From the NCBI RefSeq assembly GCF_009754915.1, contig NZ_WPIK01000001.1:186001-250000 (forward strand): DNA of 64,000 nt, read 5' to 3'. Shown one piece after another: positions 9,867 through 63,075 of the stretch; within the stretch, counting starts at the first letter, position 1, and every line of letters starts with the position of its first letter. Source of the DNA: Mucilaginibacter arboris. Its GTDB lineage: Bacteria > Bacteroidota > Bacteroidia > Sphingobacteriales > Sphingobacteriaceae. The notes beneath the pieces are model-generated. The model was given only the letters and a program-made list of their open reading frames with translations. It searched no databases and was not told the origin of the DNA. The position numbers and the translations under genes were made by a program.

Positions 9867-10538
9867 ATGCTGATATGGACTGAAGTTATCATCCGTTTAA
9901 CCTTAGCTGCTTTTTTCGGGGCAGTTATTGGATTAGAAAGAGAAAGAAAAAATTGGACGGCTGGTATGCGTACACACATGATGGTTTGTGTAGGTTCTAC
10001 ATTAATCATGATGGTTTCCGCTTTTGGCTTCTCAGATGTTTTAGGAACGGCACATGTTGTTCTTGATCCGGCGAGAATTGCAGCACAGGTAATCAGCGGG
10101 ATCGGCTTTATCGGGGCAGGAACTATCCTGTTTTCAAAACAAGGGACAATCCGTGGCTTAACCACGGCTTCCGGTTTGTGGACCGTTGCTGCAATTGGCC
10201 TGGCAACTGGCGGCGGAATGTATTTTGCAGCCGCAACAACCACTGCTATAGCTATTATAATTCTTTGGTTATTGCAACCGCTTGAAAACAGGATAGCCAA
10301 GCGGTTCAGGCAAAAAACTTTAAGGATAATAACCAAATCCAACGCAAACCCGGCAGAAATGCTGCAAGAATTAACTCAAAATAAATCCTTTAAATTATTA
10401 AGTTTTTCTTTGGATAAAGGTGATGATGAATTTATTATTCAACTAAAATTTGAAAATATTGACTTTCTTAAAGTTACAGAAGTAATTAGCAGCTTGCAGG
10501 CAAACCCAACGATAAAAGAAGTTTTTTGGAGTAATTAA
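9867..10538 (+). CDS. MgtC/SapB-family inner-membrane protein
   Basis: A 223-residue protein with four to five membrane segments in the first 140 residues and a soluble ACT-like C-terminal domain. The family core is plain: AAFFGAVIGLERERKNWTAGMRTHMMVCVGSTLIMM, then DPARIAAQVISGIGFIGAGTIL and IRGLTTASGLWTVAAIGLATGGG. Members act in Mg2+ limitation, pH or ATP-synthase regulation rather than as proven Mg2+ transporters. It stands alone, with no mgtB or Mg-sensing leader seen. Confidence 0.9.
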   Translation: MLIWTEVIIRLTLAAFFGAVIGLERERKNWTAGMRTHMMVCVGSTLIMMVSAFGFSDVLGTAHVVLDPARIAAQVISGIGFIGAGTILFSKQGTIRGLTTASGLWTVAAIGLATGGGMYFAAATTTAIAIIILWLLQPLENRIAKRFRQKTLRIITKSNANPAEMLQELTQNKSFKLLSFSLDKGDDEFIIQLKFENIDFLKVTEVISSLQANPTIKEVFWSN

Positions 10539-60801: not shown

Positions 60802-61044
60802 ATGATTAGAGAAATTGTAGAGGTTGCGGAAGAAACTATTATCCTAAAACTTCCTAAAAACTTAATTGGGAAAAAGGTAGAAGTAATTGCTTATGATATA
60901 ACAGAGCAACAAAATATTGTACCTGCTGAAATTCCTTTTAATCCTGACAAATTGAAAGACATACAAGAGCGGTACGATAAACTTCCTCGTATTTCGCACG
61001 AAAATTATAAGTTTGATCGGGACGAGGCCAACAATTATGAATAA
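60802..61044 (+). CDS. Antitoxin of a PIN-toxin pair
   Basis: 80 residues from ATG 60802 (MIREIVEVAEETIILKLP); the frame upstream is hydrophobic and not part of the family. The N-terminal half resembles a MazE/AbrB-like beta hairpin (TIILKLPKNLIGKKVEVIAYD) and the C-terminal half an acidic toxin-wrapping tail (YDKLPRISHENYKFDRDEAN). It overlaps the PIN gene by eight bases. Confidence 0.75.
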   Translation: MIREIVEVAEETIILKLPKNLIGKKVEVIAYDITEQQNIVPAEIPFNPDKLKDIQERYDKLPRISHENYKFDRDEANNYE

Positions 61045-61435
61045 TATTTTTGTTGATTCTAACATTGTATTGTATCTTATGGATGTAGATGAACATAAGA
61101 AAATTATATCCAGAAAACTGCTTTCAAACAATCCTACTATTTGCACCCAGGTATTAACAGAAGTGGCAAATGTTTGTAAATACCGATTTAAGTATAAAAA
61201 ACACGAGTTGCTAATTTTGTGGAGCGATTTATTAAGGGATTGTACTTTAATTCCTACCGATCATCAATCCGTTCACAAAGCAATTCAATTAGTAGAACTT
61301 TATGATTTTCAACTTTTTGATGCACTAATTATAGCTGATGCTTTAAAAGCAAATTGCACCATTCTTTATTCCGAAGATATGCAGCACAAAATGTTGTTAG
61401 AAAACAAGCTAACCATCATCAATCCTTTTTTGTAA
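61037..61435 (+). CDS. PIN-domain toxin (VapC-like)
   Basis: 132 residues from ATG 61037 (MNNIFVDSNIVLYLMD). The acidic PIN residues are VDSNIVLYL (Asp7), TQVLTEVANV (Glu), FDALIIADALKANC (Asp) and LYSEDMQHK (late acidic). It is an RNase toxin by family. The preceding overlapping gene is its antitoxin. Composition is AT-rich like the other PIN pair. Confidence 0.88.
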   Translation: MNNIFVDSNIVLYLMDVDEHKKIISRKLLSNNPTICTQVLTEVANVCKYRFKYKKHELLILWSDLLRDCTLIPTDHQSVHKAIQLVELYDFQLFDALIIADALKANCTILYSEDMQHKMLLENKLTIINPFL

Positions 61436-61521: not shown

Positions 61522-63075
61522 ATGGCAGCCAACAAACCATCTGTACCGAAAGGAACCCGCGATTTCTCACCGGCCGAAATGGCCAAACGCAATTATATTT
61601 TTGATACGATAAAAACAGTATTCCGAAAATACGGCTACCAGGAAATCCAAACGCCTTCTATGGAAAATCTGGAAACCTTAACCGGAAAATATGGCGATGA
61701 AGGTGATAAGTTGATTTTTAAGATATTGAATAATGGAGATTTAATTAATCAAACACTATTAAAATCTTTTGATGAATTACTAAGTCTTCTAAATTCAAAA
61801 GGATTGGAAGTAGATATTTTAAATATTGAAAACGAAGAAGTAGGAAATGGAAATAAAGATCGAAAAGTTTCATGGAGAGACATTACAAGTAAATCATTTG
61901 AACAAATTTTTGAAAAGCTACGTTACGATTCAGATGACTTGTTTGAATTATATCAATTAACCTCATTAAAATTAGGAAACACTGTTTCCGAAAAAGCCCT
62001 TCGTTACGATTTAACCGTTCCCTTCGCCCGTTATGTAGTTTCTCATCAAAGTGAAATTACTTTTCCTTTCAAACGCTTTCAAGTGCAACCGGTTTGGCGT
62101 GCAGATCGTCCCCAAAAAGGCCGTTACCGCGAGTTTTACCAATGTGATGCCGACGTGGTTGGTTCTGATTCTTTGCTGAACGAAGCTGAATTTATTCTGA
62201 TTTATGATGAAGCTTTAAGCAATTTTGGCTTAAAGGATTTTACCATCAAAATTAATAACCGTAAAATTTTATCCGGCATTGCCGAAATTATTGGTAAACC
62301 AGAATTGATTGTGGATATGACGGTTGCCATTGATAAATTAGATAAAATTGGTATGGCCGGCGTAAGCAAAGAATTGCTGGAACGCGGTTTTACAGAAGAT
62401 GACTTGCAAAAACTTACACCAGTAATTTTATTAGGCGGCGGAAATGATGAAAAAATTGATGCCTTAAAAAAAGTATTGGCAGCTTCTCCAATCGGTTTAA
62501 AAGGAATTGAAGAAATCAATACTGTTTTTACCTACCTAAAAAATGCAAGGTTAAAAACAGCAAAACTGGAACTCGATATTACACTTGCCCGCGGTTTAAA
62601 CTATTATACCGGTGCAATTTTCGAAGTAAAAACCAACGAAGTAGCCATGGGAAGCATTGGCGGCGGCGGCCGTTACGATGATTTAACCGGAATGTTTGGC
62701 TTAAAAGGAATGACCGGAGCCGGAATTTCTTTTGGTGCCGACCGGATTTATGATGTTTTAGAGGAATTAAAGCTTTTCCCGGAGGATGCCACACAAGGCA
62801 CACAAGTTTTAATTTGTTGTTTTGATAAGGAGTTTGAAAACTACGGTTTCCAATTAGTGAATCAATTACGGCAGCAGGAAATCCGTGCAGAATTATATCC
62901 GCCGGGCGCAAAAATCAAAAAGCAGTTGGATTACGCTAATAATAAAAATATTCCATTTACGATTATGATTGGCAGCGAAGAAATGCAACGCGGCTTGTTA
63001 TCCTTAAAAAACATGCAAACCGGCGAGCAGCGAAAGCTTTTGGTAGAACAGGTTCTGGCTGAATTACAAGCTTAA
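61522..63075 (+). CDS. hisS: Histidyl-tRNA synthetase with an AT-rich internal insert
   Basis: 517 residues, about 60 longer than usual for this phylum. Class II core: [39 protein letters not shown] (motif 2), [14 protein letters not shown] (His-binding) and [17 protein letters not shown], then the anticodon domain. Residues about 74-154 (61741-61983) replace a normally short loop. That stretch is about 25% GC against about 42% in the flanks and contains [17 protein letters not shown]. The frame stays open and catalytic motifs are intact, so the enzyme is probably active. Confidence 0.95.

Follow-up and report, generated by a model that had tools for sequence, protein, structure and literature searches.

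The hisS locus and its loop

The window, a 64,000-nucleotide stretch of the Mucilaginibacter arboris genome, carries a hisS gene in which a single loop is greatly enlarged. The features concerned are the following (positions are those of the window).

61522..63075, + strand: hisS, histidine--tRNA ligase (HisRS), 517 codons in a single open reading frame; TIGR00442 score 399.7 bits against a curated cut-off of 286.75; a single copy in its genome
61669..61728, + strand: the 20 codons 5' of the loop, apparently exchanged together with the loop in close relatives carrying different loops
61729..61992, + strand: the loop cassette, a long allele of 88 codons and of type T0, recognized by its anchors and by length, composition and clustering; the common form has 27-32 codons
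61993..62037, + strand: the conserved stretch [15 protein letters not shown] immediately 3' of the loop, where exchanged tracts appear to stop

The first-pass annotation had described an AT-rich, in-frame insert of about 60 extra residues at 61741-61983. These borders fall within the loop as delimited by the conserved anchors GDKLIFKIL and [13 protein letters not shown], and the insert is confirmed by the anchors, by the PDB comparison and by composition. The best PDB match of the window protein is 6NHI, the same enzyme from what we take to be Elizabethkingia, and in this sequence search residues 1-76 and those from 148 on align, i.e. both conserved parts of the protein, whereas the window HisRS has 71 residues between the aligned stretches and 6NHI only 11. 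The relatives examined mostly have 26-32 residues between the anchors as opposed to 88 in the window, and the extra residues therefore number about 60. The synthetase frame is kept throughout, as the first reading had it, and the conserved parts on either side of the loop are unbroken; charging of tRNA-His is the predicted activity. As in class II enzymes of this kind, the loop presumably forms the tip of a hairpin between motifs 1 and 2. Two structure predictions (62 and 66 rows) were mostly good for the protein but poor for residues ~50-165, where pLDDT blocks of 37-65 and tentative helices are uninformative on the loop.

Composition sets the loop apart from its own gene. Its GC content is 26% against 40% in the remainder of hisS, its GC3 12% against 36%, and its GC at fourfold degenerate sites 7% (27 sites) against 46%, and this last gap indicates that the AT bias is not a matter of amino-acid content alone. 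When 49 open reading frames of the window were scanned for GC drops over 70 codons, hisS had the second largest, and among the ten stretches listed that of hisS was the lowest in both GC (24%) and GC3 (11%). The largest drop was found at 9867-10535, in a frame whose last third is AT-rich (GC 29%, drop 0.16).

Two genomes of the same genus illustrate what follows. In one (G001) the insert recurs with 81% amino-acid identity, which argues against an assembly artefact. The other (G002) carries in the identical place an unrelated insert of 87 residues.

Copies, domains and neighbours of the insert

The insert DNA has no second copy in its own genome, the best other match being 39 bases at E 0.08. 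A profile of type T0 run against 301 genomes hit seven hisS genes, all of them rows of the profile, and gave three more hits at E 0.001-0.009 that we read as chance; the insert as a protein query against the same genomes found, beyond the window's own genome (G000) and G001, only matches at E 0.003 or weaker. Above chance level, loop sequence of the window's type thus turned up in no gene of these genomes other than hisS. Together with the single-copy insert, this gives no support to a selfish element of the simple repeated kind, and that reading was rejected. Rickettsia palindromic elements are likewise AT-rich, in-frame inserts within protein genes, but the hisS insert differs from these in lacking a second genomic copy or another host gene, and in that many unrelated sequences occupy one site.

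A phage origin was also rejected. Phage records searched with the insert yielded no match, and the two viral contigs that encode HisRS are both short-looped. Sequence searches of Pfam, PHROGs and the PDB gave nothing convincing in the way of a known domain in the loop. In a Pfam scan of the insert and ten other loops nothing exceeded a curated cut-off, and no splicing or nuclease domain was found. Among PADLOC defence models only NsnC responded (E 9e-4, 16.5 bits over 40 residues), a weak hit that we read as chance.

Just 5' of hisS, at 60802-61435, lies an AT-rich pair consisting of an 80-residue antitoxin-like open reading frame and a PIN-domain open reading frame (PF01850, E 1.4e-13), to which the codon use of the insert had initially been likened. 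This tie did not hold, since G001 has the insert and no toxin-antitoxin pair in the stretch examined near hisS, while in G002 an 80-residue antitoxin-like frame, similar-looking by eye, stands 5' of hisS beside an unrelated insert. Each of the three genomes of this genus has its own set of genes around hisS, and no partner gene is therefore fixed beside it. Literature searches, read at the level of titles and abstract openings and with thin coverage of subscription papers, turned up no description of such a loop in HisRS, which is weak evidence of novelty.

Many unrelated loops at one site

Beyond the reach of the first-pass annotation, the site turned out to host numerous alleles that are unrelated to one another and exchanged. 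Across Bacteroidota HisRS the loop behaves as a cassette with multiple alleles, comprising a common short form and many unrelated long forms of 46-162 residues, and the overall range in the loci compared is 26-162 residues. A census was made of genus g14, probably Mucilaginibacter, by taking every g14 genome in the family sample (the list was compiled by hand from the family search table), and all 105 gave a loop: 73 loops had 27-32 residues, none had 33-46 and 32 had 47-162. These 32 long loops fall into 15 sequence types by blastp single-linkage, and about 20 unrelated loop forms occur in a set of 142 genomes. The window's type T0 occurs in genera g1, g13, g14 and g18. Single linkage makes T0 and T1 loose groups, and some T0 members are only 18% identical to the first row. 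T2 and T3 are firmer: of six T2/T3 pairs checked, five have loop identities of 45-63%, and within T3 values of 30-45% were found; several long types exceed 100 residues with sequence conserved among members, T3 for example.

Long loops are also present in other families of the phylum. Of five genomes chosen there for long frames, four have loops of 117-147 residues; three loci from the phylum search have 125, 126 and 143, Yeosuana has 127, and one Microscillaceae genome has 63. Each species is represented by a single genome, and since many genomes outside g14 were selected for a long loop, census figures apply to g14 only. In the family sample 4 of 399 genomes lacked a hisS match at 1e-60; the phylum search matched 98 genomes, of which 30 loci were retained and 5 more added for long frames. 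One genome (G096, locus L224) is absent from the counts as it failed the anchor pattern, though its match spans 1-515 in a 522-residue frame.

Some loci deserve separate mention. Two f4-family genomes and a Bacteroidetes MAG have in common one 46-residue loop type (L140, L161, L162). Three loops (L186, L195, L231) lack the usual Ile-Ser-Glu before KALRYDLT and have similar 3' ends and distant cores; clustering divided them into T4 and T11. The HisRS of L192 (G110) has 522 residues and yet a loop of 28, pointing to an N-terminal extension or a wrong start, and L199 (G161) has one TAG within the matched hisS frame, the sole hisS found there, a possible nonsense change or sequencing error.

Composition and constraint of the loops

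The low GC of the window loop recurs in the other long loops examined. At fourfold degenerate sites 49 long loops (at least 46 residues) have 300/1245 GC (24%), their genes outside the loop 4132/8597 (48%), and 128 short loops have 700/1508 (46%) against 11746/23450 (50%); this set includes duplicates, as the loops of L041 and L063 are identical and some loci represent the same organism. Loop GC3 was below that of the remainder in 48 of the 49 long and 81 of the 128 short cases. The same insert with ordinary composition in most Sphingobacteriaceae would have spoken against the first-pass reading, but the relatives examined are mostly short-looped, and in the g14 census all 32 long loops are lower in fourfold-site GC than the remainder of their genes (233/828, 28%, against 3149/5711, 55%). 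The census figures for short loops, 389/883 against 7409/13192, indicate that these are mildly AT-rich too. Given these fourfold-site values, an explanation of the low loop GC by amino-acid make-up was rejected. Loop GC3 tracks host GC3 in part, with a slope of 0.29 and rho of 0.35 for 48 long loops and a slope of 0.51 for 101 short ones.

AT-rich codons were not seen to extend into the flanks, in that the GC3 of the last 15 codons 5' of the loop did not separate long from short alleles (p 0.44; relative to the 5' part of the gene, p 0.06). In the first 15 codons 3' of the loop GC3 is higher in long alleles. A candidate motif peculiar to long alleles at the 3' border was set aside: third-position identity over 15 codons is 0.51 vs 0.42 (g14, 26 and 17 rows), and further on the values are similar (0.58 and 0.60).

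Within types, loop dN/dS was 0.08-0.50 in 10 of 13 pairs (those with dS defined), and core dN/dS lay below these values, at 0.02-0.09 in 12 of 13 pairs, although dS is near saturation in most pairs and the ratios are a rough guide. Judged from these alignments the loops look like constrained protein, with diversity residing mostly between types.

Exchange of the loop and its tracts

The close relatives that differ in their loops reveal where the replaced segment would begin and end. Mean divergence was computed for 14 independent pairs of close relatives whose loops differ: at codons -55 to -21 it is 0.03-0.11, over the 20 codons 5' of the loop it rises to 0.18-0.36, and over the 60 codons 3' of the loop it is 0.07-0.14. 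In 14 pairs where both members have short loops the 20 codons 5' of the loop diverge by 0.06-0.16, and the contrast between the two kinds of pairs is strong on the 5' side (p 7e-5) and not on the 3' side (p 0.40). As read from these divergences, swaps include about 20 codons (~60 nt) upstream and end at the 3' edge of the loop. Of 24 pairs with different loops, 15 showed a 5' step supported by breakpoint fits, and ten of these steps lay between -58 and -76 nt. Among 20 short-short pairs the fits supported such a step in 7, there between -4 and -114 nt with two at -64 and -73. In most pairs displayed the change begins at or near conserved Met-Glu-Asn codons. For G000/G002, the pair that includes the window, the same fits detected no exchanged 5' tract. 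Where tracts are seen, they are short and their borders alike across separate pairs. This is most simply explained by homologous recombination between the conserved flanks, although a more specific mechanism may be at work.

The history of the loop also departs from that of the gene. On a loop-free tree of the g14 census the long/short state requires 29 changes, 27 of them forced by well supported branches, and shuffled labels require 27.6 on average, with 419 of 500 shuffles as low as observed; long and short loops in g14 are distributed as if at random on the core tree. The sub-types of the short loop, by contrast, do follow this tree (8 changes against 16.2 shuffled, 0/500 as low). In the 142 genomes of g14 and other genera, a set enriched for long loops outside g14, all types together took 43 changes, and shuffled labels averaged 43.2 (121/200 as low), and an earlier selected set of 89 rows had given weak long/short clustering (24 changes against 29.5, 10/500 as low for the long group). 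Monophyly was rejected for T0, T1, T2 and T3 among 58 rows (p-AU 5e-5, 2e-4, 8e-42 and 4e-23, respectively), where T2 and T3 weigh more; the only constraint escaping rejection was a clade of G184 and G310, kept together (p 0.097).

Other synthetase genes behave differently from the loop. In 20 genomes, mostly close relatives chosen for differing loops, a serS+thrS tree and a hisS-core tree gave the same eight sister groups, the members of which differ in loop, and the three species of the window's genus were placed differently by the two trees with weak support. No comparable insert or length change was found in serS or thrS in any of these 20 genomes, where matches span 1248-1257 and 1701 bases. 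Taken together, the loop cassette has very probably been exchanged between species. The window's own allele has persisted through one split, since in G000 and G001, which share the loop, loop dS (0.53) is near core dS (0.67).

What maintains the diversity

The explanation that we favour, to which we give a probability of about 0.5, is that the loop is a swappable cassette, exchanged by recombination and favoured as a variable surface facing a putative HisRS-directed antagonist. Short-tract homologous recombination between the conserved flanks would perform the swap, with donor DNA drawn from an AT-rich pool. One may speculate, with less certainty, that the loop is the surface where such an antagonist, be it a phage protein, a competitor toxin or an inhibitor, meets HisRS, and that a long foreign loop would alter or shield that surface. 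Selection would on this view favour long alleles only temporarily, with later loss, and this would account for the missing long/short phylogenetic signal in g14. The many unrelated types, the short residence in g14, the AT-rich source, the constraint within types and the restriction to a single site of one essential enzyme are compatible with selection that acts in episodes and comes from an agent in contact with this region of HisRS. A bolder version, tentative and with the odds somewhat against it, is that HisRS is the target of a widespread putative antagonist of the Bacteroidota (phage effector, competitor toxin or natural inhibitor), that a circulating pool of AT-rich cassettes decides sensitivity, and that an essential enzyme evolves like an immune locus. 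If such an antagonist drives the exchange, the loop types would point to a novel weapon against translation in a large phylum.

The constraint within types and the conservation of several types longer than 100 residues, such as T3, would also be expected from a useful accessory domain free of any conflict, with a loop that tunes tRNA binding, stability or the docking of a partner and is swapped by lineages to suit local conditions. We consider this unlikely, since about 20 unrelated forms exist and most relatives have none, and since long loops do not persist along the g14 phylogeny and close relatives differ.

It is improbable that the diversity is neutral, i.e. that a surface loop simply accepts foreign DNA, in frame only as the enzyme is essential and AT-rich as its codons are unselected. 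Such tolerance would agree with loop dN/dS exceeding that of the core and with the mild AT-richness of short loops, but the loop ratios are not close to 1, lengths are interrupted between 32 and 47, homologous types return repeatedly, and serS and thrS have nothing alike.

Conversion of short-loop hisS by long alleles, following a cut by an enzyme encoded elsewhere and with later loss, would be a homing-like, selfish process and is quite improbable. Inteins and homing elements are in-frame, reside at fixed sites in essential genes and move between species, all of which the hisS loop has in common with them, and the short tracts, the clustering of 5' borders in separate pairs and the position of long alleles mostly on isolated tips are as this process would predict. 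The loops differ from such elements in being constrained as protein and in yielding no splicing or nuclease domain in the scan of eleven; the many unrelated sequences, and the supported steps in short-short pairs, two of them at similar distances, likewise count against it. Should it be true, a novel means would be at hand by which DNA persists in frame within the gene of an essential protein.

An ordinary insert of a single lineage, inherited vertically, is refuted for the site as a whole by the unrelated loop of same-genus G002 and by the occurrence of T0 in four genera with its rejection as a clade, and is very improbable overall, although it may apply to the most recent step, between G000 and G001, which share the insert.

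Comparison with other variable loci

Short-tract recombination is known to generate mosaic or hypervariable bacterial genes, among them those of porins, other surface proteins and penicillin-binding proteins. The variable segment of hisS resembles these in being exchanged between conserved flanks and in having a history discordant with the remainder of the gene and with other genes, and hisS is a candidate mosaic locus. It is unlike mosaic surface genes in that the product is an intracellular, essential tRNA synthetase and the segments are unrelated, in-frame and of very different length. Diversity-generating retroelements also bring about localized replacement in a target gene, but their variants are of equal length, and the range of 26-162 residues is a misfit, as both the length and the whole sequence of the hisS loop change. 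The tRNA synthetases are commonly regarded as slow-evolving and vertically inherited, and in g14 one segment of hisS turns over faster than species split whereas the remainder of the gene does not.
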